Source: Gilliamella sp. ESL0405 | GTDB lineage: Bacteria > Pseudomonadota > Gammaproteobacteria > Enterobacterales > Orbaceae | Assembly: GCF_019469205.1 (NCBI RefSeq) | Contig: NZ_CP048265.1 | Span: 868,001 to 932,000, forward strand | Length of the DNA stretch: 64,000 bases | Direction: 5' to 3' | Shown: piece after piece, positions 1,645 through 44,488 of the stretch | How positions within the stretch are numbered: the first letter of the stretch is position 1 | Layout of the letters: each line of letters begins with the position of its first letter | Notes under the pieces: model-generated | What the model was told of the DNA's origin: nothing | Seen by the model: the letters and a program-made list of their open reading frames with translations, nothing else | Database searches by the model: none | Program-made: the position numbers and the translations under genes

Positions 1645-1740
1645 ATTACAACCTTAAAGCGCCGTATTTAAATTATCTTATTACTTAATATACCAAAATT
1701 TATTATTTACTTCATCAATGCATTTAAAAAAATGATTCAT
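1645..1740 (-). pseudogene. Decayed 5' end of a sixth WGR-domain gene
   Basis: Reading leftwards from the ATG at 1740 gives MNHFFKCIDEVNNKFWYIK and then a stop. This matches MNQYFECIDEVNNKFWYI of the first two intact neighbours. Without any gap the same frame continues as stop, stop, DNLNTAL, stop, G, against QKDNLYTVLYG in the intact genes. Homology fades near 1645. Between this start codon and the next gene's end lies exactly the 105-bp spacer seen between intact copies, so this is the head of a lost gene and not chance similarity. At least three in-frame stops are visible. Confidence 0.82.
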
Positions 1741-1845
1741 AGTGTTATGTTTTCCTAATACTTATCTTTTTTATATTTATCAGAATAATTTGACTTTATC
1801 CTGTTTATTGGGGCATAAGCCCCAATTAGTAAGCCTTTTTATTAA
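1741..1845 (-). repeat. WGR-array spacer, copy 1
   Basis: 105 bp, nearly identical to the other array spacers. It contains an 8-bp perfect stem at 1807-1814/1819-1826 (ATTGGGGC, loop ATAA, GCCCCAAT) and a TTATATTTATCAGAATAATTTG-like AT-rich block. In the direction of transcription the hairpin is not followed by a U-tract, so it looks more like an mRNA-processing or stability element than a classical terminator. Confidence 0.8.
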
Positions 1846-4800
1846 TTATAATTTGGCTAACTTTTCCTGCCAATATTCTTGATATTGTGGCAGGCGTTTT
1901 TGTGCTGTTTGGTATACCTGTTTTAGTTCAGTAGTATCGAGCTTTCTTTGCAGTTTCTCCATGGCATAATCTTGTTTTTTCTGCATCATGTATGCCCTAA
2001 ACAGTAGTGAGGCATCATACACTTCGCCCATATCCGGCGTAATTTTTTCAAGCTGTTTGATTGCCTGATAATTATCATCCTTATAAATCCCGGCACCTAA
2101 AGCCTCATCTAAATACATTATACCGGGCTTAGAGTAATCAATGTTTGGGCTTCCTTTAGGACTATCGAAGTAATAGTGTTGTTTTCGCAGTGCAAATAAT
2201 TTTTCCGTATCGGGGGATTGTCTATTCATTGCAACAGCAATCTTAGCAAAATCCATTACACCATAAATTAGCTGAGCTTGGTTTTTACCATAAATTCCCA
2301 TACCCACTTGATAGGGGGTGCCACTGAAATCAATCACGATTTTTTTTCCAAAGCAATACGCCTGTTCTGCACCCCAAATAAGAGTAGAGTCGGGATTTAT
2401 TTTATTCTGCACTTTATAAAATTGGATTATAGCGTCGAAAATGTAGGGATTCGTTATCGTTAATGGTGCAAAAATAATTGCTCTCCATGGGGAATCATAA
2501 GTTTCCAATTCTCTAACATCAAACCCGCGCTTTTTAGCTTGCAATGGTGTAATGATACAAGGTGGATTTTCGATAAAATCTTGCTCATTAATGATTAGCG
2601 ATTCGGAATCGCTTTCTGGTTTAGGTGAAATATTATAAATAATTGGCTGACCGCTAGCTTCTCCTTCCTCCTTAAGAGCGTCTAAAACTAAATTATGAAA
2701 ATCAGCATAAATTTCTTTTGCCAATGGATCAGTCGCATCACTAAACAACTCTTTTAGTTTTTTTAAGCTATATTTTTCGTTACCAAAAAGGCTCGAAGCG
2801 AGAGTAATAATTTTACGACTTTTATGAGGGATATCATCACTTTTAAAATAATCAGTCAGCGCCGCAAGATTTTGCGGTATTTTATAAAATTGACTGGATA
2901 AATTAGGTTGTTCTTGATAGCTCAATTGCAATAATGCAATCGCAACCGCTGTTTCTGGAGTAATCCCCCAATGTCTTTGCAACATTTTGCCAAAATAACT
3001 TGCCAAAAATTCGTGTTCATCATCGGTCTCAAGTGCAAATTTTATTGCCATATCCATATGTTTCACATCCGTCATTGCCAAAGCAATGGCAGCGAATGTG
3101 CCTGCGACAGAATTATCTTCATCTTGGAGATCTAAACAATGGTGAAATTTCTCCATTGTTAATTCAACAAATTTTCGTATTTTATCATGTAAACTTTCGT
3201 ACATGGCTGCTTTGCGGAAAAAAGCATGAGAGTCACTGGCTAATGCTGGGTATTCTTCAATAATATTGTTAAATGCACTGTAGAATTGAGGTTTTGCGAC
3301 GAAATAAATTCTTAGCCAATAACCCTCAAATATTTTTGAATAGCCTTTTGCCATTAAGCTATTTAAATAATCAAGTGCCTCTGAATATGCTTGTTCACTT
3401 TCTGACTTAAAGCGTAAATAGATATTACCATCAGGCATGGCTCGAGCGATAATAGCATCCGTTTCACAAAAAATATCTTGTTCTATCAACGATTCATAAT
3501 CATACATTATTTCAGATTGATTAGCATAATTATAATTATTATATCCATCGGTGATGAATTTTTTTTCCCATGCTCTTTTTTGATAAATTGCTGGAAGGTA
3601 TCCTCGTTGAACCAGCTCATTAATTTCCATTATAGCATAATCATATCGATAATTTTCCCACAAATATTGAGCTGAAATGAGTTTGAGCTCGTTAGCAAAA
3701 TCTGTTTGAGAGTATCCATAAGTCGGTATTAAAGACCACGTATGGTGTTCTATACCTTCATCGCCTGAATAAAGATATTTTTTTAATAACGCTAGAATCC
3801 TATCGGTAAAAGATTTTTGAATAAGGCAGGAAGTATCTAAATATTTTCTCAATAATATAGACAATAGCGTCACATCATACAGATCGGATTTTTCGAGTTG
3901 TTGAAGATATTCATCTATTTTTTCTAACTGCTCTTTGAGATAACTTTCGTTAATGCGTTTTTCAATTAATGGCTCTATTTCGCCTATAAATGTAATTTTA
4001 AAATAATTTGTCGCTAATCCATCAAAAAAGCCTTCATTAAGCATAGTTTCAAGTTTATGTTTAAGTATAGGGGTTAAATATTTTATAATTAACTTCGACT
4101 CATGATTTTGTGTATCACAGCTGAATTGAGCATAGCAAGTTGGATCGTTCTTATGAACTAAATTATAAATACCACTATCCCTGAAATTTTCTATTTTTAT
4201 ACCGAAACCATAGCTTTTTTTAGAAAGTCTATAAGGGGGGATATTACCTTTTCCTCCCGAGCGGATGCAATTCACTATTTCTTTCAAAAAGTGAATTATT
4301 TGAGCGGAAATATTTTCACATAATCCTTTAAAATACTCTTCAATCAACATATTTATCATGTTCAAATCGCTTGGATTATGAGAGAAAAGATATTTCAGAA
4401 CTCCTTGCGCATTTTTTCCTTTTACCATAATATTTGCTTCTTTAAGTGGTAAAAGATAAGCTAATAGCTCTAAATGGATTGGGCAAACCCGCCAAATAGA
4501 ATCAGAAAATATCATTTCAAGAAATTCTTTAATTAAATTTTGAAATTCTTTTTCCGACGAACTTAACGCTTTAAGCCTGTCTAAAGTAGCAACGACTTCG
4601 AATTGATAACCAAAGCGATTACCTTCTTCTATATGTATTTGTACTTTATTTTTTAGATTTTTAAATTCATTAATATTTCGACTATTAGTTGAATTAGACG
4701 TATTGCTAATGTTTGTTTTACGTAACTCTTCAAAATCAAATGGATTCGGTTCACCTTCATCAGCCCATTCATCGAGGTCAAACCACGGTTTTTCTTTACC

Positions 4801-5124
4801 GTCATCAATCACATCTTTGGGTGGTGTGGGTTTGGGGTGATATTTCGGTTTTGGGGCATCGGGCATTTTGATAATTTGACTTAATCGGGCAATCGCTGGC
4901 AATAGCGTTGCTGGTATGGTTTTTTCATGATAGCCCTTTTTAATTTTTGATTTTATTATTTTTATTGCTTCTTTTTCTGCTTCCTCCTGCGAAGCAAAGG
5001 TCTTGGTATGCTTTTGTCCTTCGGTTCCAATTTCACCATAAAGCACTGTGTAAAGATTGTCTTTTTGATCGATATACCAAAATTTATTATTCACTTCATC
5101 AATGCATTCAAAATATTGATTCAT
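1846..5124 (-). CDS. WGR-domain protein, array gene 1 (last in transcription order)
   Basis: 1092 residues, function unknown. Residues 1-75 form a WGR domain (KFWYI, LYTVLYGEIGTEG, then a basic helix rich in AEKEA/KSKIKKG). WGR domains in other families (PARPs, MolR/YehI-like proteins) contact nucleic acid. Next is a Pro-rich linker (KMPDAPKPKYHPKP) and an acidic EKPWFDLDEW segment to about residue 135. The long central region is probably alpha-helical. The C-terminal 240 residues contain GQPIIYNISPKP, FAPLTITNPYIFD and a closing TPR-like helix pair. No signal peptide or membrane segment. Module types (my labels): WGR type A, body type I, C-terminal type 1. Start chosen by alignment with its paralogues; AAGGA lies about 12 nt upstream. 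Confidence 0.85.
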   Translation of the reverse strand: MNQYFECIDEVNNKFWYIDQKDNLYTVLYGEIGTEGQKHTKTFASQEEAEKEAIKIIKSKIKKGYHEKTIPATLLPAIARLSQIIKMPDAPKPKYHPKPTPPKDVIDDGKEKPWFDLDEWADEGEPNPFDFEELRKTNISNTSNSTNSRNINEFKNLKNKVQIHIEEGNRFGYQFEVVATLDRLKALSSSEKEFQNLIKEFLEMIFSDSIWRVCPIHLELLAYLLPLKEANIMVKGKNAQGVLKYLFSHNPSDLNMINMLIEEYFKGLCENISAQIIHFLKEIVNCIRSGGKGNIPPYRLSKKSYGFGIKIENFRDSGIYNLVHKNDPTCYAQFSCDTQNHESKLIIKYLTPILKHKLETMLNEGFFDGLATNYFKITFIGEIEPLIEKRINESYLKEQLEKIDEYLQQLEKSDLYDVTLLSILLRKYLDTSCLIQKSFTDRILALLKKYLYSGDEGIEHHTWSLIPTYGYSQTDFANELKLISAQYLWENYRYDYAIMEINELVQRGYLPAIYQKRAWEKKFITDGYNNYNYANQSEIMYDYESLIEQDIFCETDAIIARAMPDGNIYLRFKSESEQAYSEALDYLNSLMAKGYSKIFEGYWLRIYFVAKPQFYSAFNNIIEEYPALASDSHAFFRKAAMYESLHDKIRKFVELTMEKFHHCLDLQDEDNSVAGTFAAIALAMTDVKHMDMAIKFALETDDEHEFLASYFGKMLQRHWGITPETAVAIALLQLSYQEQPNLSSQFYKIPQNLAALTDYFKSDDIPHKSRKIITLASSLFGNEKYSLKKLKELFSDATDPLAKEIYADFHNLVLDALKEEGEASGQPIIYNISPKPESDSESLIINEQDFIENPPCIITPLQAKKRGFDVRELETYDSPWRAIIFAPLTITNPYIFDAIIQFYKVQNKINPDSTLIWGAEQAYCFGKKIVIDFSGTPYQVGMGIYGKNQAQLIYGVMDFAKIAVAMNRQSPDTEKLFALRKQHYYFDSPKGSPNIDYSKPGIMYLDEALGAGIYKDDNYQAIKQLEKITPDMGEVYDASLLFRAYMMQKKQDYAMEKLQRKLDTTELKQVYQTAQKRLPQYQEYWQEKLAKL

Positions 5125-5229
5125 TGTTTTATGTTTTCCTTATACTTATCTTTTTTATATTTATCAGAATAATTTGAATTTATCCTGTTTATTGGGGCAT
5201 AAGCCCCAATTAGTAAGCCTTTTTATTAA
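5125..5229 (-). repeat. WGR-array spacer, copy 2
   Basis: 105 bp between array genes 1 and 2, almost identical to copy 1. Hairpin ATTGGGGC-ATAA-GCCCCAAT at 5191-5210. It also carries the AAGGAAAAC ribosome-binding region of array gene 1. Confidence 0.82.
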
Positions 5230-8200
5230 TTATAATTTCGCTAACTTTTCCTGCCAATATTCTTGATATTGTGGCAGACGTTTTTGTGCTGTTTGGTACA
5301 CCTGTTTTAGTTCAGTAGTATCGAGTTTTCTTTGTAGTGTCTCCATGGCATAATCTAGTTTTTTCTGCTGCATATATGCCATAAACAGCAGTGAGGCATC
5401 ATAGACTTCGCCCATATCCGAGGTGATTTTTTCAAGCTGTTTGATTGCCCGATAATTATCATCCTTATAAATCCCGGCACCTAAAGCCTCATCTAAATAC
5501 ATTATACCGGGCTTGGAGTAATCAATGTTTGGGCTTCCTTTGGGACTGTCGAAGTAATAGTATTGTTTTCGCAGGGCGAGTAATTTTTCTTTATCAGGCG
5601 CTTGTTTGTTCATTGCAACAGCAATCTTAGCAAAATCCATTACACCATAAATTAGTTGAGCTTGGTTTTTACCATAAATTCCCATACCCACCTTATAAGG
5701 GGTGCCACTGAAATCAATCACGATTTTTTTTCCAAAGCAATACGCCTGTTCTGCACCCCAAATAATAGTAGAGTCGGGATTTATTTTATTCTGCACTTTA
5801 TAAAATTGGATAATAGCGTCGAAAATGTAGGGATTCGTTATCGTTAATGGTGCAAAAATAATTGCTTTCCATGATGAATCATAAGTATATAATTCTCTAA
5901 CATCAAACTCCCGCTTTTTAGCTTGTAATGGCGTGATGATACAAGGTGGATTTTCGATAAAATCTTGCTCATCGATGATTAACGTTTCGGAGTCGCTTTT
6001 TGGCTTAGGTGAGATGTTATAAATAATTGGTTGACCGCTAACTTCATCTTCATCCTTAAGAGCTTCTAAAACTAAATCATGAAAATCTGCATATATCAAC
6101 TTTTCTTGCGGATCCGTTGCATTATTAAATAATTTTTTTAACTTTTTAAGACTATCACCAGGTTCACCAAAAAGATATTTTACTAAATAACTCAATTTAC
6201 AATATGGATTTTTTGGCTCGTTCATACTGTAATAATCGGTCAAACTAGCTAAATTTTGCGGAATTTTATAAAATTGACTGGATAACTCATACATATGTTG
6301 GCCTTGAGTTAATTGCAATAGAGCAATCGCAACCGCAGTTTCGGGCGTAATACCCCAATATTTTTCAAGAACAATACCAAAATTACCTGCCAAATATTCA
6401 TGGTCACCATCGGTTTCAAGTGCAAATTTAATAGCCAAATCCATATGTTTCACATCCGTCATTGCCAGGGCAATAGCAGCAAATGCTCCGGCGACTGAAT
6501 TATATTCATCTTGTAAATCAAAACTATAATCAAGTTCATACATGGTTAAGTCAACAAACTCTCTTATTTTATCATGTAAACTTTCGTACATGGCTGCTTT
6601 GCGGAAAAAGACATGTGAACAACAAGCTATTCCTCCTGCCCCTAGCTCTAATTCTTCAAAGTGTACATATTTTTTAACGTATTTAGCGAATTCAGAATAG
6701 TATTCAGGCTTGGCAACAAAATAAATATGAAGCCAATGCCCCTCGAATATATTTGAATAACCTTTTGCCATTAAGTTATTTAAATAATCAAGTGCATCGG
6801 AATATGCCTGTTCACTTTCTTGTTTAAAGCGTAAGTAAATTTCACCACCCGTTGGCATGGCTCTGGCGATAATGGTTTCAGTTTCACAAAAAACATCATT
6901 TTCAGTAAAAGTATCATAAAAACGTTCGGTTTCTGATTGATTGTCTGAATCGTCTTTTTTTCCTGGCTTGCTATCTCTAATGCCCAGCTTATCCCACGTT
7001 TGTTTTTGTAGAATTGCTGGTTCATATCCTTTATCAACTAAGTATTTGATATGTACATCTGCATATTTAAATGCAAAATTTTCCCATTCAAACTGTAAAT
7101 CAACTAAACGCCATTTGTTATAATCAAGATTGCAGTATTTTGTTAACAGAGAACATCCTTTCGATTCAGCCTCTTTCTCACCTGAATAAAGATATTTTTT
7201 TATTAATGCTAAAATTCTATCGGTATCATAATTATCAATAATGCCATTATAGGCAAAATATTCATCAATCGTGTCAGTTAGCAAATCTACATCATATTCA
7301 TCTGATTGCTCCAGATATTTTAGGTCTCTTTCAAGCTCAAGTATCTTGGTTTGTCGGTAGGTTTGTTCTATTGGTGTTTCGATAAAAATATTGTCCTTAT
7401 TGCAGAAAGCAATTCTAAAATAATGATCTGTAATACCTTCAAAAAAACCACTATCCAGCATTTTCTGGAGTTTTTCGGTAAGTAGTGGGATAAAATATTG
7501 ATTATTTATCTGATCACTATACTGAAGCGCATTATACTCTAGATCATTGATAGCAAACGATCGATAACTTTTGGGATTCTCGCCTCGAATTAAAGCGAGT
7601 ATTCTTAGATATCCTTCATCGAAGGTAATATAAAAACCATAAACATGATTTGGTAATTTGTAAGCTGGAATATTATCTTCACCACCAGCTCGAATTGTGT
7701 CAACAATGTGTTGTAATGCGCTAACTATTTTATCCACCATTTGTACCGGATAATCGGTAAGATATTGTTCAGCCAGATGATGAATAGAAACAGGACAGGT
7801 TTGATAACGATTAAAAATATATTTTAATACACCTTTAGATTCTCGTTCAGCTATTTGAATATTTGGATCAAGAATTGTTGAAAAATAAGTAATGCAATCA
7901 AAATGTATCGGAGCTATTTTCTCTATAAATTTTGAAAATATAATTCCTACAGTATTTTTGACTAAGGTATTAAATACTTCTATAGACGGACTTAATGTTT
8001 TCAATTCTTTAAATGTTGCTACCACATCAAAATTCACGCCCTGTTTTATATAGTTTCGAGATAATTCTCTTAAATCCAGATATTCTTTGCTACTTTTGGG
8101 TGATTGACTCACGTGTATTGGCGGCGACTCAATCACAGATTTTGCGGATGATGGACTAACCGATGTATTGGTTGATTTTGATATGTTTTTTTTTACAGAG

Positions 8201-8610
8201 GGTTTACGTAACTCGTCAAAATCAAATGGGTTAGGTTCACCTTCATCAACCCATTCGTCGAGGTAAAACCATGGTTTTTCTTTACCGTCATCAATCACAT
8301 CTTTGGGTGTTGTGGGTTTGGGGTGGTTTTTCGGTTTTGGGGCATCGGGCATTTTGACAATTTGACTCAATCGGGATATCGCTGGCAATAGCGTTGCTGG
8401 TATGGTTTTTTCTTGATAACCCTTTTTGATTTTTGATTTTATTATTTTGCAGGCTTCTTTTTCTGCTTCCGCCTGCGAGGCAAAGGTCTTCGTGTGCTTT
8501 TGTCCTTCGGTTCCAACCGCACCGTAAAGCACCGTGTAAAGGTTATCTTTTTGCTCGATATACCAAAATTTATTATTCACTTCATCAATGCATTCAAAAT
8601 ATTGGTTCAT
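5230..8610 (-). CDS. WGR-domain protein, array gene 2
   Basis: 1126 residues, function unknown. The N-terminus (MNQYFECIDEV, KFWYIEQKDNLYTVLYG) is the same WGR type A as array gene 1. The body is type II, shared with array genes 4 and 5: CCSHVFFRKAAMYESLHDK, LTMYELDYSFDLQDEY and LTQGQHMYELSSQF are signatures. The C-terminal 240 residues return to the type 1 sequence found in genes 1 and 3. The linker after the first EELRK-like motif is unique (NISKSTNTSVSPSS), so this is a variable hinge. It is probably cytosolic; no signal or membrane segments. Downstream of gene 3 by 100 bp and upstream of gene 1 by 105 bp, probably cotranscribed. Confidence 0.85.
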   Translation of the reverse strand: MNQYFECIDEVNNKFWYIEQKDNLYTVLYGAVGTEGQKHTKTFASQAEAEKEACKIIKSKIKKGYQEKTIPATLLPAISRLSQIVKMPDAPKPKNHPKPTTPKDVIDDGKEKPWFYLDEWVDEGEPNPFDFDELRKPSVKKNISKSTNTSVSPSSAKSVIESPPIHVSQSPKSSKEYLDLRELSRNYIKQGVNFDVVATFKELKTLSPSIEVFNTLVKNTVGIIFSKFIEKIAPIHFDCITYFSTILDPNIQIAERESKGVLKYIFNRYQTCPVSIHHLAEQYLTDYPVQMVDKIVSALQHIVDTIRAGGEDNIPAYKLPNHVYGFYITFDEGYLRILALIRGENPKSYRSFAINDLEYNALQYSDQINNQYFIPLLTEKLQKMLDSGFFEGITDHYFRIAFCNKDNIFIETPIEQTYRQTKILELERDLKYLEQSDEYDVDLLTDTIDEYFAYNGIIDNYDTDRILALIKKYLYSGEKEAESKGCSLLTKYCNLDYNKWRLVDLQFEWENFAFKYADVHIKYLVDKGYEPAILQKQTWDKLGIRDSKPGKKDDSDNQSETERFYDTFTENDVFCETETIIARAMPTGGEIYLRFKQESEQAYSDALDYLNNLMAKGYSNIFEGHWLHIYFVAKPEYYSEFAKYVKKYVHFEELELGAGGIACCSHVFFRKAAMYESLHDKIREFVDLTMYELDYSFDLQDEYNSVAGAFAAIALAMTDVKHMDLAIKFALETDGDHEYLAGNFGIVLEKYWGITPETAVAIALLQLTQGQHMYELSSQFYKIPQNLASLTDYYSMNEPKNPYCKLSYLVKYLFGEPGDSLKKLKKLFNNATDPQEKLIYADFHDLVLEALKDEDEVSGQPIIYNISPKPKSDSETLIIDEQDFIENPPCIITPLQAKKREFDVRELYTYDSSWKAIIFAPLTITNPYIFDAIIQFYKVQNKINPDSTIIWGAEQAYCFGKKIVIDFSGTPYKVGMGIYGKNQAQLIYGVMDFAKIAVAMNKQAPDKEKLLALRKQYYYFDSPKGSPNIDYSKPGIMYLDEALGAGIYKDDNYRAIKQLEKITSDMGEVYDASLLFMAYMQQKKLDYAMETLQRKLDTTELKQVYQTAQKRLPQYQEYWQEKLAKL

Positions 8611-8710
8611 TGTTTTATGTTTTCCTTATGGTTAATTTTTTATATTTATCAGAATAATTTGAATTTATCCTGTTTATTGGGGCATAAGCCCCTTTTTATG
8701 ATTTTATTTT
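8611..8710 (-). repeat. WGR-array spacer, copy 3 (shortened)
   Basis: 100 bp. The AT-rich block and the GGGGC-ATAA-GCCCC core (8679-8692) are kept, but the AATTAGTAAGCC segment next to the hairpin in copies 1, 2 and 4 is missing, so the stem is 5 bp here. The sequence next to the gene end differs accordingly. Confidence 0.75.
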
Positions 8711-11700
8711 TTATAATTCCGCTAACTTTTCCTGCCAATATTCTTGATATTGTGGCAGGCGTTTTTGTGCTGTTTGGTACACCTGTTTTAGTTCAGTAGT
8801 ATCGAGTTTTCTTTGTAGTGTCTCCATGGCATAATCTAGTTTTTTCTGCTGCATATATGCCATAAACAATAGTGAGGTATCATAGACTTCGCCCATATCC
8901 GGTGTGATTTTTTCAAGCTGTTTGATTGCCCGATAATTATCATCCTTATAAATCCCGGCTCCTAAAGCCTCATCTAAATACATTATACCGGGCTTAGATT
9001 TATCAATGTTTGGGCTTCCTTTTGGACTATCAAAGTAATAGTATTGTTTTCGCAGTGCGTATAATTTTTCTTTATCGGGCGCTTGTTTGTTCATTGCAAC
9101 AGCAATCTTTGCAAAATCCATTACACCATAAATTAGCTGAGCTTGGTTTTTAGCATAAATTCCCATACCCACTTGGTAGGGGGTGCCACTGAAATCAATC
9201 ACGATTTTTTTTCCAAAGCAATACGCCTGTTCTGCACCCCAAATAAGAGTAGAGTTGGGATTTATTTTATTCTGCACTTTATAAAATTGGATAATAGCGT
9301 CGAAAATGTAGGGATTGGTTATCGTTAATGGCGCAAAAATAATTGCTCTCCATGAGGAATCATAGGTTTCCAATTCACCAACATCAAACCCGCGTTTTTT
9401 AGCTTGCAATGGTGTAATGATACAACGTGGGTTTTCGATAAAATCTTGTTCATCGATGATTAACGGTTCGGAATCGCTTTCTGGTTTAGGTGAGATGTTA
9501 AAGATAATTGGTTGGCCGGTAACTTCATCTTCATCCTCAAGAGCGTCTAAAACTAAATTATGAAAATTAGCATAAATCTCTTTTGCCAAAGGATCAGTCG
9601 CATCACTAAACAACTCTTTTAGTTTTCTTAAGCTATATTTTCCGTTACCAAAAAGGCTCGCAGCGAGAGTAATGATTTTGCGACTTTTATAGGGGATATC
9701 ACAGTCATTAAAATAATCAGTTAGCGTAGCAAGATTTTGCGGTATTATATAAAATTGACTGGATAAATTAGGTTGTTCTTGATAGCTCAATTGCAATAAT
9801 GCAATCGCAACTGCTGTTTCTGGGGTAATCCCCCAATGTCTTTGCAATATTTTGCCAAAATAACTTGCCAAAAATTCGTGTTCATCATCGGTCTCAAGTG
9901 CAAATTTTATTGCCATATCCATATGTTTTACATCCGTCATTGCCAAAGCAATGGCAGCGAATGTACCTGCGACAGAATTATCTTCATCTTGGAGATCTAA
10001 ACAATGGTGAAATTTCTCCATTGTTAATTCAATAAACTCTCGTATTTTATCATGTAAACTTTCGTATATCGCTGCTTTGCAGAAAAAAGCATGAGAATTA
10101 CTGGCTAGATCAGGATATTGTTTGATGATGCGAGCAAATTCAGGATAGTATTCAGGCTTGGTAACAAAATAAACATTAAGCCAATAACCATCAAATTTTT
10201 TAGAATAGCCTTTTGCCATTAAGCTATTTAAATAATCAAGTGCTTGTGAATATGCCTTCTCACTTTCTTCTTTGAAACGCAGATAGATTTTGCCATTTGT
10301 TGACATAGCTCTAGCAATAATAGCATCTGTTTCACAAAAAACATCATTTTCAGTAAAAGAGTTATAAGAATATGTATTTACATGTTGATTTATTGAATCT
10401 TCTATTACACGGGGTGTGTAATGAATTTCACCCAGCTGATCCCACTCTTGTTTTTGTATTATTGCTGGCTCATATCCAGCATTTATTAGAGGATTTAATC
10501 CTTTGTAAGCAACTTTAAAATCAAAATCTTTCCATTTGAATTGGAGGTTAGCCAGATGCCATTTATTAAAGTCAAAATCAGCATATTCTTCTATAAGACT
10601 TATACTTATTTTTTGGGGGTTTGCTTCACCAGAATGAAGATATTTTTTTAATAATGCTAAAATTCTATCCGTTTTAAGATGCAGAATAACGCCATCTGAA
10701 GCAAAATACGCTTTAACTGTATCAGATAAGAGTTCGATATCATATTCATCCGATTTTTCAAGTTTTTGAAGATTTGCCTCTATATTTTTTGCTAATTCAT
10801 TAAGGTGATCCTCATTCAAGCGTTTATCCGCTAATGGTTGAAATTGATTGAAAAATGCAATTTTAAAGTAATTTTCCGTAAGACCATCAAAAAAATCTTG
10901 ATCAACCATTTGTTGTAATTTAGGTTTTAAAAATTGTGTTAAATATTGGATGATAAGTATTGAATTATGATACTGCATATCACAATTGTGTTCTGTATAA
11001 TCAATATAGCGATTGTCATAGTTCAGGCTACAAATTTTAAAACATCCTTTACTGAACGTTCTGATGAAAAATCCGTAAGTAGCATTGGGAAGTTTATAGG
11101 CAGGGATATTTTCACTTCCACCAGAGCGAATTGTCTCGACTAATTTTTTAACTTGAATCACCACCTCTTCAGCTACATCTTTAAAAAAAGCGGTTAGATA
11201 TTTATCAACTAAACCATGAATACCTGTTAAATTGCTTTGATAATTGTCATAAATGTATTTCAAAACTCCCTTAGCATTCTGTTCTTTTATCAATATATTT
11301 GAATGTTTAATAGGTAAAAGATAAGCTAAGATATCTAAATGAATTGGAGAAACCAAAATAACAAAATCAGAAAAAATAGCTTCAAGTATATTTTTTATTA
11401 AAGTTTGAAATACTGTTTCTGATGCACTAAGAACTTTAAGTTTATTGAAAGTAGCTACGACATCAAATTGATCACCTTGTCTAATATGTTTTTGAACCAT
11501 ATTTTTAAGATTTTCAAATTCTAGTTCTTGTGCTGTTTTGGTTAAAGTTTCTTTTTCAACCGGGTTATTAATTTCTTTTGTTGGTTGTTGAACGGGAGGT
11601 ACCTTACGTAACTCTTCAAAATCAAATGGGTTAGGTTGACCTTCATATGACCATCCTTGAAGATTAAACCACGGTTTTTCTTTACCGTCATCCTTCACAT

Positions 11701-12019
11701 CTTTGGGTGGTGTGGGTTTGGGGTGGTATTTCGGTTTTGGGGCATCGGGCATTTTGATGATTGTTTGGCTTTGCTTTTCTATGCAGGTTGATTGTTCAAA
11801 CGCTGGTGGGATTGCTTTTTCCTCATAGCCCTTTTTGATTTTCGATCTGATCAGTTTGTTGGCTTCTTTTTCCGCATCGGCAGGCGATAAAAACGTTTTA
11901 ACTTGTGTTTGTCCTTTTGCCCCTACCTTACCAAATACGACTGTTAGTGATTCGTTTTGTTTGGTGATATACCAAAATTTGTTTGACTGTAGATCGCTAT
12001 ATTCTAGATACTTTTTCAT
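8711..12019 (-). CDS. WGR-domain protein, array gene 3
   Basis: 1102 residues, function unknown. The N-terminus is WGR type B (MKKYLEYSDLQSNKFWYI, then TKQNESLTVVFGKVGAKGQ and KGYEEKAIPPAFEQSTC), clearly different from genes 1 and 2. The later body is type I as in gene 1: HAFFCKAAIYESLHDKIRE, LTMEKFHHCLDLQDED, LLQLSYQEQPNLSSQF and the SRKIITLAASLFGN block. The middle (YADFDFNKWHLANLQFKWKD) instead resembles type II genes. The C-terminal 240 residues are type 1, almost identical to genes 1 and 2. Same Pro-rich linker (KMPDAPKPKYHPKPTPPKD) as its relatives. No signal peptide or membrane helices. Confidence 0.85.
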   Translation of the reverse strand: MKKYLEYSDLQSNKFWYITKQNESLTVVFGKVGAKGQTQVKTFLSPADAEKEANKLIRSKIKKGYEEKAIPPAFEQSTCIEKQSQTIIKMPDAPKPKYHPKPTPPKDVKDDGKEKPWFNLQGWSYEGQPNPFDFEELRKVPPVQQPTKEINNPVEKETLTKTAQELEFENLKNMVQKHIRQGDQFDVVATFNKLKVLSASETVFQTLIKNILEAIFSDFVILVSPIHLDILAYLLPIKHSNILIKEQNAKGVLKYIYDNYQSNLTGIHGLVDKYLTAFFKDVAEEVVIQVKKLVETIRSGGSENIPAYKLPNATYGFFIRTFSKGCFKICSLNYDNRYIDYTEHNCDMQYHNSILIIQYLTQFLKPKLQQMVDQDFFDGLTENYFKIAFFNQFQPLADKRLNEDHLNELAKNIEANLQKLEKSDEYDIELLSDTVKAYFASDGVILHLKTDRILALLKKYLHSGEANPQKISISLIEEYADFDFNKWHLANLQFKWKDFDFKVAYKGLNPLINAGYEPAIIQKQEWDQLGEIHYTPRVIEDSINQHVNTYSYNSFTENDVFCETDAIIARAMSTNGKIYLRFKEESEKAYSQALDYLNSLMAKGYSKKFDGYWLNVYFVTKPEYYPEFARIIKQYPDLASNSHAFFCKAAIYESLHDKIREFIELTMEKFHHCLDLQDEDNSVAGTFAAIALAMTDVKHMDMAIKFALETDDEHEFLASYFGKILQRHWGITPETAVAIALLQLSYQEQPNLSSQFYIIPQNLATLTDYFNDCDIPYKSRKIITLAASLFGNGKYSLRKLKELFSDATDPLAKEIYANFHNLVLDALEDEDEVTGQPIIFNISPKPESDSEPLIIDEQDFIENPRCIITPLQAKKRGFDVGELETYDSSWRAIIFAPLTITNPYIFDAIIQFYKVQNKINPNSTLIWGAEQAYCFGKKIVIDFSGTPYQVGMGIYAKNQAQLIYGVMDFAKIAVAMNKQAPDKEKLYALRKQYYYFDSPKGSPNIDKSKPGIMYLDEALGAGIYKDDNYRAIKQLEKITPDMGEVYDTSLLFMAYMQQKKLDYAMETLQRKLDTTELKQVYQTAQKRLPQYQEYWQEKLAEL

Positions 12020-12124
12020 TGTGTTATGTTTTCCTAATACTTATCTTTTTTATATTTATCAGAATAATTTGAATTTATTCTGTTAATTGGGGCTTAAGCC
12101 CCAATTAGTAAGCCTTTTTATTAA
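12020..12124 (-). repeat. WGR-array spacer, copy 4
   Basis: 105 bp. Here the hairpin core is a perfect 22-bp palindrome at 12085-12106, because the loop is TTAA instead of ATAA. The rest closely matches copies 1 and 2. Confidence 0.8.
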
Positions 12125-15100
12125 TTATAATTTGGCTAACTTTTCCTGCCAGTATTCTTGATATTGTGGCAGGCGTTTTTGTGCTGTTTGGTATACCTGT
12201 TTTAGTTCAGTAGTATCGATTCTTTGCAGTTTCTCCATGGCATAATCTAGTTTTTTCTGCTGTATATATGCCATAAACAATAGTGAGGTATCATACACTT
12301 CGCCCATATCCGGGGTGATTTTTTCAAGCTGCTTGATTGCCCGATAATTATCATCCTTATAAATCCCGGCGCTTAAAGCCTCATCCAAATACATTATACC
12401 GGGCTTAGAGTAATCAATGTTTGGGCTTCCTTTGGGACTATCGAAGTAATAGTATTGTTTTCGCAGTGCGTATAATTTTTCTTTATCGGGCTCTTGTTTG
12501 TTCATTGCAACAGCAATCTTGGCAAAATCCATTACTCCATAAATTAGCTGAGCTTGGTTTTTACCATAAATTCCCATACCCACTTGATAAGGGGTGCCAC
12601 TAAAATCAATCACGACCCTTTTACCAAAACAGTACGCTTGTTCAGTGCCCCAAATGATAACAGAGCGGACACCTATGTTATTTTGCACTTTATAAAATTG
12701 GATAATAGCGTCGAAAATGTAGGGATTGGTTATCGTTAATGGCGCAAAAATAATTGCTCTCCATGAGGAATCATATGTTACCAATTCACCAACATCAAAC
12801 CCGCGTTTTTTAGCTTCCAATGGCGTAATGACACAAGGTGGATTTTCGATAAAATCTTGCTCATTAATGATTAGCGATTCGGCATCGCTTTCTGGTTTAG
12901 GTGAGATGTTATAAATAATTGGTTGACCGCTACCTTCTCCTTCTTCCTCAAGAGCTTCTAAAACTAAATTATAAAAATCAGCATAAATCAATTTCTCTTG
13001 CGGATCAGTCGCATTATTAAATAATTTTTTTAACTTTTTAAGACTATCACTAGGTTTACCAAAAAGATATTTTACTAAATAAGTCAATTTACAATATGGA
13101 TTTTTTGGCTCGTTCATACTGTAATAATCGGTCAAACTAGCTAAATTTTGCGGAATTTCATAAAATTGACTGGATAATTCAGACATATGTTGACCTTGAG
13201 TTAATTGCAATAGCGCAATCGCAACCGCTGTTTCGGGCGTAATACCCCAATATTTTTCAAGAACAATACCAAAATTACCTGCCAAATATTCATGGTCACC
13301 ATCGGTTTCAAGTGCAAATTTAATAGCCAAATCCATATGTTTCACATCCGTCATTGCCAGGGCAATAGCAGCAAATGCCCCGGCGACTGAACTATATTCA
13401 TCTTGTAAATCAAAACTATAATCAAGTTCATACATAGTTAAGTCAACAAACTCTCGAATTTTATCATGTAAACTTTCGTACATCGCTGCTTTGCGGAAAA
13501 AAACATGTGAACAACAAGCTATCCCCATCCCTAGTTCATATTCTTCAAAGTGTACATATTTTTTAACGTATTTAGCGAATTCAGAATAGTATTCAGGCTT
13601 GGCAACAAAATAAATATGAAGCCAATGCCCCTCAAATATTTTTGAATAACCTTTTGCCATTAAGTTATTTAAATAATCAAGCGCATCGGAATATGCCTGT
13701 TCGCTTTCTTGTTTAAAGCGTAAATAAATTTCTCCGTCAGTTGGCATGGCTCTGGCGATAATGGTTTCAGTTTCACAAAAAACATCAGTTTCAGTAAAAG
13801 TATCATAAAAACGTTCGGTTTCTGATTGATCGTCTGGATCGTCTTTTTTTTCTGGCTTGCTATCAGGCTTGTTATCAATAATGCCCAGTTTATCCCACGC
13901 TTGTTTTTGTAGAATTGCTGGTTCATATCCTTTATCAACTAAGCATTCAACACTGTTATAAGCATATCTATAATCAAAATTAGCCCATTCAAACTGTAAA
14001 TCAACTAAATGCCATTTGTTATAATCAAAATCGTCGTATTTCCTTAACAGTGAACGTCCTTTCGATTCAGCCTCTTTCTCACCTGAATAAAGATATTTTT
14101 TTAGTAATGCTAAAATTCTATCGGTATCGTATTGCTCAATAACGCCATTAAGGGCAAAATATTCCTCAACCGTGTCAGTTAGCAAATCTGCATAATATTC
14201 ATCTGATTGCTCGAGATATTTTAGGTCGCTTTCAAGCTTAAATATCCTTGTTTGTCGGTAGGTTTGTTCTAGTGGTATTTCAATAAGAATATTATCTGTT
14301 TGGAAAAGGGCAATTCTGAAATATTTATCAGTCATACCACCAAAAAAACCATCATCCAGCATTTTCTGGAGTTTTTTGGTAAGTAATGGAACAAAGTATT
14401 GATTATTTATCTCAACGCCATAACTAGTCCCATCATATTCTAGCTCATTTAGACTTTCTGAATAATAGCGTTTGGAATTTCGTTCATTGAATAAAGCATA
14501 TATTTCCAGCGTTTTATAATCAAAGGTGATATTAAAGCCACAAACATTTTCAGGGAATTTGTTAGCTGGAGTATTTTTTTCATTTTCTTCTGTCTGGGTA
14601 GTTTCAAAAATACTCTGTAATGCGTTAACTATTTTATCCACCATTTGTATTGGATAATCGGTTAGATATTGTTCAGCCAGCTGATGGATTGATTCGGCAT
14701 GAGTCTGATAACGGTCATAAATATATTTCATCACACCTTGCGCAAAGATTTCTTGGAAAAGAATTTCTGGATCTCTGATTCTCAAAAGATAAGGAATGCA
14801 ATCAAAGTGAATCGGTGATATTTTCTTCATAAATTTTGAAAATATCATTTGAAGCATATCTTTGATGAAAATTTGAAATTCCTTATTGTTTGGACTTAAC
14901 GCTTTTAATTGTTCGAACTTAGCTTCAATATCGAACTGCTCACCTTGCTTTATATATTTTCGTAACAAAACTTTTAAGTTATCAAATTCTTGTTCTTGTG
15001 GTGTTTTGGTGACTGTTTCTTTTTTAATCGGGGTATTACTTTGTTTTGGTGGTTGTTTAACTGGAGCAACTTTTTTAGGCGGAACCTTACGTAATTCATC

Positions 15101-15493
15101 AAAATCAAATGGGTTAGGTTGACCTTCATCAGCCCATTCATCAAGATCAAACCATGGTTTTTCTTTACCGTCATCAATCACATCTTTGGGTGGTGTGAGT
15201 TTTGGGTGGTTTTTCGGTTTTGGGGCATCAGGCATTTTGACAATTTGACTCAATCGGGCTATCGCGGGCAATAGGGTTGCTGGTATGGTTTTTTCTTGAT
15301 AACCCTTTTTTATTTTTGATGTTATTATTTTGACAGCTTCTTTTTCTGCTTCCGCCTGCGAGGCAAAGGTCTTAGTGTTCTTTTGCCCTTCGGTTCCAAC
15401 CGCACCGTAAAGCACCGTGTAAAGGTTATCTTTTTGCTCGATATACCAAAATTTGTTTGATTGTAAATCGCTATATTCTAGATACTTTTTCAT
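12125..15493 (-). CDS. WGR-domain protein, array gene 4 (chimaeric WGR domain)
   Basis: 1122 residues, function unknown. The first 18 residues (MKKYLEYSDLQSNKFWYI) are identical to gene 3 (type B), but the sequence then switches to type A (EQKDNLYTVLYGAVGTEGQ) as in gene 2. The switch falls in a block of about 15 bp encoding KFWYI that all copies share. The body is type II (TMYELDYSFDLQDEY, LTQGQHMSELSSQF). The C-terminal domain begins like gene 5 (CVITPLEAKKRGFD), continues like gene 3 (VGELVTYDSSWRAIIF), then has its own patch (NNIGVRSVIIWGTEQ). One residue shorter near the end (LQRIDTTEL instead of LQRKLDTTEL). Confidence 0.85.
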   Translation of the reverse strand: MKKYLEYSDLQSNKFWYIEQKDNLYTVLYGAVGTEGQKNTKTFASQAEAEKEAVKIITSKIKKGYQEKTIPATLLPAIARLSQIVKMPDAPKPKNHPKLTPPKDVIDDGKEKPWFDLDEWADEGQPNPFDFDELRKVPPKKVAPVKQPPKQSNTPIKKETVTKTPQEQEFDNLKVLLRKYIKQGEQFDIEAKFEQLKALSPNNKEFQIFIKDMLQMIFSKFMKKISPIHFDCIPYLLRIRDPEILFQEIFAQGVMKYIYDRYQTHAESIHQLAEQYLTDYPIQMVDKIVNALQSIFETTQTEENEKNTPANKFPENVCGFNITFDYKTLEIYALFNERNSKRYYSESLNELEYDGTSYGVEINNQYFVPLLTKKLQKMLDDGFFGGMTDKYFRIALFQTDNILIEIPLEQTYRQTRIFKLESDLKYLEQSDEYYADLLTDTVEEYFALNGVIEQYDTDRILALLKKYLYSGEKEAESKGRSLLRKYDDFDYNKWHLVDLQFEWANFDYRYAYNSVECLVDKGYEPAILQKQAWDKLGIIDNKPDSKPEKKDDPDDQSETERFYDTFTETDVFCETETIIARAMPTDGEIYLRFKQESEQAYSDALDYLNNLMAKGYSKIFEGHWLHIYFVAKPEYYSEFAKYVKKYVHFEEYELGMGIACCSHVFFRKAAMYESLHDKIREFVDLTMYELDYSFDLQDEYSSVAGAFAAIALAMTDVKHMDLAIKFALETDGDHEYLAGNFGIVLEKYWGITPETAVAIALLQLTQGQHMSELSSQFYEIPQNLASLTDYYSMNEPKNPYCKLTYLVKYLFGKPSDSLKKLKKLFNNATDPQEKLIYADFYNLVLEALEEEGEGSGQPIIYNISPKPESDAESLIINEQDFIENPPCVITPLEAKKRGFDVGELVTYDSSWRAIIFAPLTITNPYIFDAIIQFYKVQNNIGVRSVIIWGTEQAYCFGKRVVIDFSGTPYQVGMGIYGKNQAQLIYGVMDFAKIAVAMNKQEPDKEKLYALRKQYYYFDSPKGSPNIDYSKPGIMYLDEALSAGIYKDDNYRAIKQLEKITPDMGEVYDTSLLFMAYIQQKKLDYAMEKLQRIDTTELKQVYQTAQKRLPQYQEYWQEKLAKL

Positions 15494-15598
15494 TGTGTTA
15501 TGTTTTCCTAATACTTATCTTTTTTATATTTATCAGAATAAATTAAATTTATCCTATTGTTTTTTTGGGGCATAAGCCCCTTTCTATAATCCTATTTT
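15494..15598 (-). repeat. WGR-array spacer, copy 5
   Basis: 105 bp, the most diverged spacer. It has the GGGGC-ATAA-GCCCC core at 15567-15580 but lacks the extended AATT stem and shows a T-rich substitution beside it. The half next to the array gene 4 start is the same as in copies 1 and 4 (GTGTTATGTTTTCCTAATAC). Confidence 0.75.
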
Positions 15599-18500
15599 TT
15601 ATAATTTCGCTAACTTTTCCTGCCAGTATTCTTGATATTGTGGCAGGCGTTTTTGCGCTGTTTGGTACACCTGTTTTAGTTCAGTAGTATCGAGTTTTCT
15701 TTGCAGTTTCTCCATGGCATAATCTAGTTTTTTTTGCTGCATATATGCCCTAAACAGTAGTGAGGCATCATAGACTTCGTCCATATCTGGGGTGATTTTT
15801 TCAAGCTGTTTGATTGCCCGATAATTATCATCCTTCAAAACCCCAGCGCCTAAAGCCTCATCCAAATACATCATACCGGGCTTAGAGTAATCAATGTTTG
15901 GGCTTCCTTTGGGACTATCGAAGTAATAGTATTGTTTTCGCAGTGCGTATAATTTTTCTTTATCGGGCTCTTTTTTGTTCATTGCATCTGCAATCTTAGC
16001 AAAATCCATTACTCCATAAATTAGCTGAGCTTGGTTTTTACCATAAATTCCCATACCCACTTGATAGGGGGTGCCACTGAAATCAATCACAACCTTTTTA
16101 CCAAAACGGTACGCTTGTCCAGCGCCCCAGATGATAGATGAGTTAGCGGTTATTTTTTTCCTAGATTTAATAAATTCAATCAGATGGTCAAATAGATAAG
16201 GATTAGTTATCGTTAATGGGGCAAAAACAAACGCTTCACACGATGAACCATCAGAATCTAATTCATCGAGATCAAACCCGCGTTTTTTAGCTTCCAATGG
16301 CGTAATGACACAAGGTGGATTTTCGATAAAATCTTGCTCATTAATGATTAGCGGTTCGGAATCGCTTTCTGGTTTAGGTGAGATATTATAAATAATTGGT
16401 TGACCGCTACCTTCTCCTTCTTCCTTAAGAGCTTCTAAAGCTAAATCATGAAAATCTGCATATATCAACTTTTCTTGCGGATCCGTCGCATTATTAAATA
16501 ATTTTTTTAACTTTTTAAGACTATAACGAGGTTCACCAAAAAGATATTTTACTAAATAAGTCAATTTACAATATGGATTTTTTGGCTCGTTCATACTGTA
16601 ATAATCCGTCAAACTAGCTAAATTTTGCGGAATTTTATAAAATTGACTGGATAATTCAGACATATGTTGACCTTGAGTTAATTGCAATAAAGCAATCGCA
16701 ACCGCAGTTTCGGGCGTAATACCCCAATATTTTTCAAGAACAATACCAAAATTACCTGCCAAATATTCATGGTCACCATCGGTTTCAAGTGCAAATTTAA
16801 TAGCCAAATCCATATGTTTCACATCCGTCATTGCCAGGGCAATAGCAGCAAATGCCCCGGCGACTGAATTATATTCATCTTGTAAATCAAAACTATAATC
16901 AAATTCATACATGGTTAAGTCAACAAACTCTCGAATTTTATCATGTAAACTTTCGTACATCGCTGCTTTGCGGAAAAAAACATGTGAACAACAAGCTATT
17001 CCTCCTGCCCCTAGCTCTAATTCTTCAAAGTCTTCATATTCTTCAACGTATTTAGCGAATTCAGAATAGTATTCAGGCTTGGCAATAAAATAAATATGAA
17101 GCCAATGCCCCTCAAATATATTTGAATAACCTTTTGCCATTAGACCATTTAAATAATCAAGCGCGTCCGAATAGGCCTGTTCACTTTCTTGTTTGAAGCG
17201 TAAGTAAATTTCACCACCCGTTGGCATGGCTCTGGCGATAATGGTGTCAGTTTCACAAAATACATCAGTTTCAATAAAAGTATCATAAAAACGTTCGGTT
17301 TCTGATTGATTGTCTGAATCGTCTTTTTTTTCTGGCTTGCTATCTCTAATGCCCAACTTATCCCACGCTTGTTTTTGTAGCATTGCTGGTTCATATCCTT
17401 TATCAACTAAGTCTTGAATATGTATATCAGCATATTTAAATCCAAAATTTTCCCATTCAAACTGTAAATAAACTAACCACCATTTTTTAAAATCAACATG
17501 GGTGTGTTTCCATAACAGAGAACGTCCTTTAGATTCAGCCTCTTTTTCACCTGAATAAAGATATTTTTTTAATAATGCTAAAATTCTATCGGTATCATAA
17601 TGATCAATAATGCCATTGAAGGCAAAATATTCCTCAACCGTGTTAGTTAGCAAATCTGCATGATATTCTTCTGATTGCTCCAGATATTTTAGGTCTCTTT
17701 CAAGCTCAAGTATCTTGGTTTGTCGGTAGGTTTGTTCTATTGGTGTTTCAATGAAAATATTGTCCTCATCGCAAAAAGCAATTCTAAAATAATGATCTGT
17801 AATACCTTCAAAAAAACCATTATCCAGCATTTTCTGGAGTTTTTCGGTAAGTAGTGGCACAAAATATTGATTATTTATCTGATCACTATACTGAGGCTCA
17901 TTATACTCAATATCACTAATAGCAAATGATTGATAACTTTTTGGGTTTCTATCTCGATTTAAAGCGTATATTTTCAGATATTTTTCATCGAAGGTGATAT
18001 AAAAACCATAGGTATGATTCGGTAATTTGAAAGCTGGAATATTATCTTCACCACCAGCTCGAATAGAGTCAACAATGTGTTGTAACGTACTGGCTATTTT
18101 ATCTGCCATTTGTACTGGATAATCGTTAAGATATTCTTCAGCCAGGCGATGAATTGAATCGGGACGGGTTTGATAATTGTCATAAATATATTTTAATACC
18201 CCTTGAGCATAAAAATCTTTCACTACAATGTTGGTATCTTTGATTGTTAAAAGATAGGTTATACAATCAAAATGCATTGAGGATATTTTATTGATGAATT
18301 TTGAAAAAATAACTTCTAAAGTATCTTTAACTAACGTTTGAAATACCTTAGTACTTGGACTCAACACTTTTAATTGTTCAAACGTCGCTTCGATATCGAA
18401 CTGCTCACCGTCTTTAATATATTTTCGTAACAAAACTTTTAAGTTATCAAATTCTTGTTCTTGTGGTGTTTTAGTGACTGTCTCTTTTTTGATCGGCGCA

Positions 18501-18958
18501 TCACTTTGTTTTGGTGGTTGTTTAACTGGAGCAACTTTTTTAGGCGGAATTTTACGTAACTCGTCAAAATCAAATGGGTTAGGTTGACCTTCACCAACCC
18601 ATTCGTCGAGGTAAAACCATGGTTTTTCTTTACCGTCATCAATCACATCTTTGGGAGGAATCGGTTTTGGGTGATATTTCGGTTTTGGGGCATCGGGCAT
18701 TTTGATGATTGTTTTTTCTGTGCAGGTTGATTGTTCAAGCGTTGGTGGGATCGCTTTTTCCTCATAGCCCTTTTTGATTTTCGATTTGATCAGTTTGTTG
18801 GCTTCTTTTTCCGCATCGTAAGGCGAAGAAAACATTTTAACTTGTGTTTGTCCTTTTGTACCTATCTTACCAAATACGATTGTTAGGGATTCGTCTTGTT
18901 GGGTGATATACCAAAATTTATTCGACAAGGTATCTTTAAACTCTAAATAATGCTTCAT
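15599..18958 (-). CDS. WGR-domain protein, array gene 5 (first in transcription order)
   Basis: 1119 residues, function unknown. WGR type B (MKHYLEFKDTLSNKFWYI, SLTIVFGKIGTKGQ), linker with KKVAPVKQPPKQSDAP, body type II (CCSHVFFRKAAMYESLHDK, TMYEFDYSFDLQDEY). The C-terminal domain is the most diverged (FDLDELDSDGSSCEAFVF, DHLIEFIKSRKKITANSS, GAGQAYRFGKKVVIDF) before rejoining the shared tail. AAGGA lies 9 nt before the ATG and differs from the RBS region of the other four. As the 5'-most gene it probably carries the main promoter upstream (a weak candidate pair TTGTAT/CTATAA reading leftwards near 19024-18997). Confidence 0.85.
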   Translation of the reverse strand: MKHYLEFKDTLSNKFWYITQQDESLTIVFGKIGTKGQTQVKMFSSPYDAEKEANKLIKSKIKKGYEEKAIPPTLEQSTCTEKTIIKMPDAPKPKYHPKPIPPKDVIDDGKEKPWFYLDEWVGEGQPNPFDFDELRKIPPKKVAPVKQPPKQSDAPIKKETVTKTPQEQEFDNLKVLLRKYIKDGEQFDIEATFEQLKVLSPSTKVFQTLVKDTLEVIFSKFINKISSMHFDCITYLLTIKDTNIVVKDFYAQGVLKYIYDNYQTRPDSIHRLAEEYLNDYPVQMADKIASTLQHIVDSIRAGGEDNIPAFKLPNHTYGFYITFDEKYLKIYALNRDRNPKSYQSFAISDIEYNEPQYSDQINNQYFVPLLTEKLQKMLDNGFFEGITDHYFRIAFCDEDNIFIETPIEQTYRQTKILELERDLKYLEQSEEYHADLLTNTVEEYFAFNGIIDHYDTDRILALLKKYLYSGEKEAESKGRSLLWKHTHVDFKKWWLVYLQFEWENFGFKYADIHIQDLVDKGYEPAMLQKQAWDKLGIRDSKPEKKDDSDNQSETERFYDTFIETDVFCETDTIIARAMPTGGEIYLRFKQESEQAYSDALDYLNGLMAKGYSNIFEGHWLHIYFIAKPEYYSEFAKYVEEYEDFEELELGAGGIACCSHVFFRKAAMYESLHDKIREFVDLTMYEFDYSFDLQDEYNSVAGAFAAIALAMTDVKHMDLAIKFALETDGDHEYLAGNFGIVLEKYWGITPETAVAIALLQLTQGQHMSELSSQFYKIPQNLASLTDYYSMNEPKNPYCKLTYLVKYLFGEPRYSLKKLKKLFNNATDPQEKLIYADFHDLALEALKEEGEGSGQPIIYNISPKPESDSEPLIINEQDFIENPPCVITPLEAKKRGFDLDELDSDGSSCEAFVFAPLTITNPYLFDHLIEFIKSRKKITANSSIIWGAGQAYRFGKKVVIDFSGTPYQVGMGIYGKNQAQLIYGVMDFAKIADAMNKKEPDKEKLYALRKQYYYFDSPKGSPNIDYSKPGMMYLDEALGAGVLKDDNYRAIKQLEKITPDMDEVYDASLLFRAYMQQKKLDYAMEKLQRKLDTTELKQVYQTAQKRLPQYQEYWQEKLAKL

Positions 18959-19492
18959 TTCCCATATTCCTTAATTATAATTTTTGTTTAGTTCTTATAG
19001 ATATATAAATAGTCATTAATACAACTTTTTGAGTGTATAAAATTTTGATTATAAAAACGACCATTATTTTCGAGGTCTCCTGGAAACACTTAGATGAAAT
19101 GAGATGAGTTTTTGCATTAATTTTACATCATGTCTCTTTCTAGTATTTTAGGTGTGTGTGTAAGCCTTTCTAAATATTGATTATAAAAATGATAGTTGAA
19201 TTAATTTTGTCTATTAATTTTCAATATATGAACATTCGAAACTGGTTTTTTTGAGGGAAGTTTCTATAATAACTTTTCGGATGAGTAAAGTTATAAAAAA
19301 TTACTTTGCACTTTCTACAAGCAATATTGCACCAAAATTTAAATAATGATATTTATTGCCGCTTTTCAGGGCTACAATTAAACTGTTTTGTAGGCTTTCA
19401 TTGAGTGTTTGGAATGTTTTTTAGCTAATAAATGCTGTTAATTCCTTCAATGTGGTTAATAATTTATATCAATACTCATTGTTAACCATTTT
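18959..19492. other. Non-coding divergent intergenic region
   Basis: About 530 bp between the minus-strand WGR array and the plus-strand permease operon. AT-rich with no ORF, tRNA or terminator that I can support. It must hold the promoters for both directions. Confidence 0.6.
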
Positions 19493-44465: not shown

Positions 44466-44488
44466 TATCGCTCCCTACGGATTAATCA

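Follow-up and report, generated by a model that had tools for sequence, protein, structure and literature searches.

Two kinds of described system resemble the locus reported here, a tandem array of five genes for proteins with a WGR domain and a DUF6138 core. The array lies in a stretch of 64,000 nucleotides (the window; positions 868001-932000) of the single-contig, 2.81 Mb genome of Gilliamella sp. ESL0405, one of the Orbaceae, which are bee-gut bacteria. In the polyimmunity clusters of polymorphic-toxin systems, runs of related genes are gained, lost and exchanged much as they are here, and the surroundings of a stand-alone DUF6138 gene in another genome (G692) add to the likeness. However, the array proteins are about 1,100 residues long and carry a WGR and a constant C-terminal domain, and no toxin gene was recognized nearby. 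Recombining tandem families that are diversified by gene conversion share with the array their constant ends, variable centre and mosaic copies, but the copies described here are complete genes rather than silent donors, and their pool of modules spans two genera.

Similar partial likenesses were found for the single domains. Residues 1-68 of the array proteins match in sequence the solved WGR chain 2ra8 from Bacteroides fragilis (E 1.5e-14), but the match covers only the first 68 of its 362 residues. No match to DUF4132, which MolR-like WGR proteins carry, was obtained with the five array proteins (Pfam, E up to 1). Stand-alone DUF6138 proteins, encoded by one gene each in four genomes of the order, align with array residues 581-784 in a profile comparison using five members (E 6e-16), although the five open reading frames (ORFs) that we read are only 469-593 residues long. 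Here and below, relatives are those present in the sampled genomes, plasmids and viral contigs. The best overall explanation, to which we give close to an even chance, is that the array consists of tandem, apparently cytoplasmic paralogues that keep and remix a limited pool of module versions and may serve as recognition proteins in conflict or defence.

Organization of the WGR-DUF6138 array

A reading of the sequence alone had proposed five tandem WGR proteins of about 1092-1126 residues, and this was borne out: positions 1846-18958 contain, on the minus strand, five complete head-to-tail ORFs of 1092, 1126, 1102, 1122 and 1119 residues (genes 1-5). All five proteins exceed the Pfam cut-offs for WGR (PF05406; 52.3-62.0 bits, cut-off 22) and for DUF6138 (PF19635; 41.1-63.8 bits, cut-off 25), the latter over the C-terminal part of the profile only, the best stretches beginning at or beyond position 311 of 551. 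Each protein begins with its WGR domain, continues through a proline-rich linker and a variable middle to the DUF6138 core, and ends in a C-terminal part that has no Pfam family above cut-off. These five genes account for every WGR match in their genome (E 0.001). The genes, and the modules of the first in transcription order, are as follows.

15599..18958, minus strand: gene 5, first in transcription order, 1119 residues; WGR type B, C-terminal type 2
12125..15493, minus strand: gene 4, 1122 residues; codons 1-18 type B, then WGR type A
8711..12019, minus strand: gene 3, 1102 residues; WGR type B, body type I
5230..8610, minus strand: gene 2, 1126 residues; WGR type A, body type II
1846..5124, minus strand: gene 1, 1092 residues; WGR type A, body type I
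18755..18958, minus strand: WGR domain of gene 5, residues 1-68, one of two WGR types
17279..18550, minus strand: most variable middle of gene 5, residues 137-560
16472..16987, minus strand: DUF6138 core of gene 5, residues 658-829 (best Pfam stretch)
15602..16423, minus strand: C-terminal domain of gene 5, residues 846-1119, of which 991-1119 are nearly constant among copies

Recombination between copies

Recombination among the array copies is certain. When the five genes were aligned and submitted to the pairwise homoplasy index (PHI) test, none of 1,000 permutations reached the value observed over 567 informative sites, and none of 300 did so for 18 complete copies. The larger alignment comprises the five genes of the window, eight from genome G029, two from G026 and three from Frischella japonica, which belongs to the same family but to another genus. 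Six incomplete F. japonica genes were not included, five of them on contigs C36 and C15 and one on C2.

The grouping of the copies changes along their length. Genes 3 and 5 are joined by 33 two-state sites in the WGR domain and by 20 in the linker, while genes 1 and 3 are joined by 26, 30, 46, 15 and 111 in successive stretches from the middle to DUF6138, where minority groupings reach at most 9 sites. Genes 4 and 5 are grouped by 11 sites in residues 906-990, and residues 991-1119 have no leading grouping. The proposed WGR types (A in genes 1, 2 and 4, B in 3 and 5) thus stand, with the refinement that codons 1-18 of gene 4 are of type B, siding with gene 3 at four sites, whereas the remainder of its WGR does not. 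Other early assignments survive only in part. The two body types, I in genes 1 and 3 and II in genes 2, 4 and 5, hold in residues 656-845, where the 111 sites joining genes 1 and 3 compare with 13 for the other five groupings listed, but not in residues 137-560, where the same two genes share merely 54-61% of their DNA sequence, so that this part is further subdivided. Likewise, the suggested C-terminal gradient is seen in residues 901-960 (identity to the best partner 96-97% for genes 1-3, 86% for gene 4 and 72% for gene 5), but residues 991-1119 are instead 91-95% alike in all five. A scheme of three modules is too simple: there are more than three, and the variable middle is itself a patchwork.

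Conflicting module trees strongly support the earlier suggestion of repeated recombination that keeps variety, with p-values down to 4e-53 in approximately unbiased (AU) tests on quick trees. The WGR-B clade was rejected in each of the three remaining modules tested (p 3e-4, 3e-48 and 6e-6), the body-I clade in the WGR (1e-26) and C-terminal (8e-4) modules, and the C-terminal clade in the WGR (0.015), middle (6e-7) and DUF6138 (1e-4) modules. One switch is in a copy from G026 (G026-b), which pairs with gene 2 of the window in residues 281-560 (support 99) and with a G029 copy (G029-h) in the DUF6138 part (support 100). The DUF6138 part rejects the first of these pairs (p 4e-53), and residues 281-560 reject the second (p 2e-9). 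Recombination has thus swapped the WGR and C-terminal domains, the DUF6138 core and stretches of the variable middle. With six coarse module types, we counted 11 distinct combinations in the 18 complete copies and four-gamete patterns in 5 of 15 module pairs; as typing was by single linkage at 85%, which merges versions, these counts are lower bounds. With 18 complete copies in at least 11 combinations, nature has supplied chimeras that can be used to ask which module sets specificity.

Chimeric assembly of repeats could in principle produce such mosaics, and the F. japonica contigs do break within array genes. However, the other three carriers are single-contig assemblies and full-length combinations recur in independent genomes, which makes this explanation extremely improbable.

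Exchange between species and genera

The shuffling proposed for the array is not confined to it, as near-identical modules cross the borders of species and genus. For 233 of 342 array windows of 60 codons, the best sequence in another carrier is at least 97% identical (median 98.9%), whereas no core-gene control window does so (rlmKL 0/48, maximum 85.0%; mrcA 0/42, maximum 82.2%, F. japonica not being part of the mrcA control). The identity of rlmKL in DNA is 77.7-78.1% among the three carriers of the genus and 70.7-72.6% between these and F. japonica, and the RlmKL proteins of the two genera are 74-75% identical. Furthermore, synonymous distance is about 2.2 for rlmKL within the genus but 0-0.07 for the most alike array modules, the other modules of the same copies standing at 0.2-0.5.

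For some copies the likeness extends over the full length of the protein. Gene 4, G029-e and the F. japonica copy k1 share 97-99% of their residues (gene 4 is 99% identical to G029-e and 97% to k1), gene 5 is 97% identical to G029-d, and gene 1 is 96% identical to G029-a. In another case only part of a gene is shared: residues 102-547 of gene 2 are 99.6% identical in DNA to a G026 copy, which then switches to another type. Array modules are thus at least 97% alike where the core genes tested are 71-78% identical in DNA, and this points to recent exchange of the array genes specifically, perhaps under selection. That the array has undergone recombination together with horizontal exchange is, in our view, almost beyond doubt, and spread through uptake and homologous recombination may account for it. 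The contig with k1 holds array genes only. Contamination was considered as a cause of the identity between genera and rejected, because two F. japonica copies (J_1 and J_2) on the contig that also holds rlmKL give the same signal, with 18 of 38 windows at 97% or more.

An alternative is that these are ordinary tandem duplicates under patchy gene conversion, in which the ends are homogenized, the middle drifts, the mosaic matters for dosage only, and exchange across species is a by-product of DNA uptake. Such a process would fit the median synonymous distance among the five copies of the window, which is 0.20 in residues 991-1119 and 0.64-1.25 in residues 137-560 (five of the ten pairs are saturated in residues 281-420). 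It would also fit the ratio of nonsynonymous to synonymous change (dN/dS), which is mostly below 1: in pairs with a synonymous distance of 0.05-1.0 the module medians are 0.23-0.56, and values above 1 occur in 14 of 86 pairs in residues 421-560, in 1 of 131 in residues 561-655 and nowhere else. Along a nearest-relative path, descriptive only since it has no null model, switches per 100 residues are commoner in the linker (21.1) and tail (21.7) than in residues 137-400 (9.2-9.7), which is again in its favour. However, shared module versions persist across three species and two genera and have not been homogenized away, and near-identity over the whole length of genes extends between genera. In addition, all 15 array genes in the three closed genomes are open, and so are the three complete genes analysed from F. 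japonica, a point qualified by one F. japonica copy and a sixth gene of the Gilliamella sp. ESL0405 array, both broken. We therefore consider gene conversion with dosage as the only consequence to be unlikely. The dN/dS pattern fits module versions that have been kept functional.

Distribution and genomic context

Of the genomes searched, 3 of the 35 from the genus and 4 of the 44 from Orbaceae carry an array, and a second genome from the genus of F. japonica has none. The carriers have five genes (Gilliamella sp. ESL0405), eight (G029), two (G026) and about six (F. japonica). A query of 270 residues from the C-terminal domain of gene 5 matched 4 of 394 genomes sampled from the order (E 0.001), namely the same four carriers, while DUF6138 at the same threshold matched 9 of 394 genomes in the sample of the order, 1 of 369 in that of the class and 4 of 398 in that of the phylum, the genome of the window being counted.

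In G029 and G026 the array stands between a large ORF that reads like an autotransporter and a three-gene operon with a DUF6384 gene. G012, with an rlmKL gene 96.3% identical to the one in G029, has both of these neighbours but no array: 536 bases correspond to the left flank of G029 at 99% and, after about 190 unmatched bases, 276 bases correspond to the right flank at 92%. The unmatched stretch (L060 8736-8926, about 190 bases) had no match among the loci compared. Copy number and presence thus vary even between close genomes. Plain duplication, the simple alternative in the sequence-only reading, would be expected to leave one tree topology and one array content in all relatives, and we found that the topologies conflict, that the arrays have 5, 8, 2 or about 6 genes, and that one site is empty. 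The identities over 60-codon windows, the differences in array content and the empty site together describe a horizontally exchanged and reshuffled repertoire rather than plain duplication.

In F. japonica the array begins after rlmKL and its pieces lie on three contigs; if taken as a single array, they amount to about six genes, with an endonuclease V gene beyond the end. One F. japonica copy (L024 4710-8017) is interrupted by stops in the draft assembly, where decay and assembly error are indistinguishable. The same genome encodes a further WGR protein (G500:C10:91941-92162; frame of 1092 residues), which matches over the WGR domain only.

No integrase was recognized among the flanking ORFs that we read. 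Nor were there long flanking repeats, just matches of 10-13 bases in AT-rich flanks (those of F. japonica being on two contigs). Transfer RNA genes were absent from the window, and in the scanned stretches of G029 and G026 the array is separated from the nearest one by 5.8 and about 13 kb, respectively.

The DUF6384 operon encodes a protein of 383-412 residues, a DUF6384 protein of 456 residues and a protein of 451-485 residues, and was located at three loci.

L045 2823-6790: three-gene DUF6384 operon
L047 1774-5746: three-gene DUF6384 operon
L094 8595-12508: three-gene DUF6384 operon

The array might be the variable part of a larger system that includes this operon, for example one related to the membrane or to stress, as in G026 and G029 it lies directly upstream of the operon on the same strand. 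However, searches of the window's own genome, which has five open array genes, returned no relative of either the first or the DUF6384 protein of the operon; the first protein occurs in 11 of the 35 genomes of the genus, of which nine have no array; and the F. japonica operon sits on a contig other than those of the array, with different genes on either side. We consider a joint system improbable. The array behaves as a separate passenger, and these data already lean towards loss of the operon leaving the function of the array unchanged. PADLOC gives a faint match to HamA for the first operon protein (E 0.0028 over 62 residues), and the third has a serine- and glycine-rich tail in G026 and G029.

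A possible role in conflict or defence

The sequence-only reading had thought a defence, conflict or regulatory role conceivable. A conflict or defence role seems possible to us, at somewhat short of an even chance, given the pattern of diversity and exchange, the lack of an obvious export signal and the neighbourhood of the stand-alone DUF6138 gene in G692. That gene lies among DUF1963, ankyrin, DUF4253 and DUF4261 genes, types that occur in immunity clusters, and G665 has a DUF4253 gene about 2 kb from its stand-alone DUF6138 gene. The constant tail, the linker and the spacers would provide homology for crossing-over. In a role of this kind, the variable middle, which is probably a helical repeat (a weak structural model suggests one for residues ~160-540), would bind targets that differ between neighbours, such as rival toxins or phage components, and the constant ends would couple recognition to one common output, while the WGR domain would contact nucleic acid or a partner. 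The array might then act as a shared, shuffled recognition repertoire. The more specific proposal, less likely still, is of an unfamiliar Orbaceae system with a community-wide pool of specificities, remixed in each lineage and traded between genera, much as in an open-ended immune repertoire but without a dedicated mutator. Should the array have a role in conflict, this would help to explain how closely related symbionts exclude or tolerate one another, and would assign a function both to DUF6138 and to the WGR proteins of bacteria.

Several observations weigh against this role or against the remixed pool on which it builds. No toxin or known defence gene was recognized beside the arrays, where Pfam was run on 13 flanking proteins of the window, 8 beside the G029 and G026 arrays, 6 of an island next to the array of the window and 1 of F. 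japonica, and other ORFs were judged by eye. Three of the five array proteins were scanned against PADLOC-DB 2023 without a match (E up to 0.01), and there was no link to type VI secretion, since VipB occurs in 24 of the 35 genomes of the genus and in two of its three array carriers. Around the stand-alone DUF6138 genes of G590, G523 and a Fusobacterium record, the neighbouring genes are of ordinary kinds, those for dehydrogenases among them. Each species is represented by a single genome. The dN/dS pattern gives no demonstration of diversifying (positive) selection, the full-length structural model is weak (mean predicted local distance difference test score, pLDDT, 47.8) and the C-terminal model unusable (36.3). 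Finally, the AU groups were chosen from identity tables of the same data, so that their p-values do not come from a blind test, and some pairings were not rejected, namely G026-b with G029-h (0.17) or gene 2 (0.065) in the WGR domain and G026-b with G029-h in the C-terminal module (0.37).

Antigenic or surface variation against the host often takes the form of mosaic arrays with constant ends. We think it very improbable here, as the proteins start directly with the WGR domain and their maxima of hydrophobicity over 19 residues are 1.2-1.5 in four copies of the window and 2.0, at residue 219, in gene 3. Furthermore, the genes are complete and similarly spaced, and do not form a single expressed copy with silent donors.

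Two viral contigs match the WGR region only (34 and 38%; residues 5-97 and 5-67), without any array, and 12 plasmid records match the WGR or DUF6138 part, none over 80% of the query; four of these records exceed 1.4 Mb. In PHROGs, each of the three array proteins scanned matches the same three families of unknown function over its WGR region (best E 3.6e-14), so that WGR is also present in phage proteins, and there was a weak match to a polymerase family. In NCBIfam, the WGR region alone resembles LIC_11051, far under its cut-off.

Spacers, array ends and neighbouring features

The spacers of the array in the window are 100-105 bp long and each contains a GGGGC-4-GCCCC hairpin, with a further one after gene 1. 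These five compare with a mean of 0.0 in 200 mononucleotide shuffles, and across all carriers the exact hairpin is present in 15 of 17 spacers.

15567..15580, minus strand: spacer hairpin GGGGC-4-GCCCC, genes 5/4
12089..12102, minus strand: spacer hairpin, genes 4/3
8679..8692, minus strand: spacer hairpin, genes 3/2
5194..5207, minus strand: spacer hairpin, genes 2/1
1810..1823, minus strand: same hairpin past gene 1, ahead of the broken sixth gene
18959..19078, minus strand: array leader; a similar leader precedes the G026 and F. japonica arrays, not that of G029
1651..1740, minus strand: residues 1-30 of a broken sixth array gene, with three stops
79..1263, minus strand: Mutator-family transposase at the truncated end of the array

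A C-terminal scrap of an array gene (25 residues) lies 42 kb away, at 827427-827501 of the genome contig. Between the two ends of the sixth gene are a TniQ-like gene, the Mutator-family transposase and a siderophore-like cluster, the last identified with Pfam for some proteins and by eye for the largest ORFs. This region looks like a mobile island, and its arrival may have broken the sixth gene. The siderophore-like cluster (836047-863803), near the TniQ-like gene, includes very large ORFs of 2806 and 1525 residues, a combined AMP-binding and chorismate-binding protein, and ABC and MMPL exporters.

As the promoter scan returned fewer sites (54) than shuffled sequences did (80.8), we make no promoter claim for TTGGCA-17-TATAAT, which is present at the 3' end of both gene 1 and gene 2. 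Terminator-like sites number 31, compared with 11.9 in shuffles, and many recur between copies. Elsewhere in the window, an autotransporter of 1517 residues is encoded at 25632-30185, similar-looking large ORFs being those that adjoin the array in G029 and G026, and an RpsF leader RNA (Rfam RF02893) lies at 44463-44543 on the minus strand.

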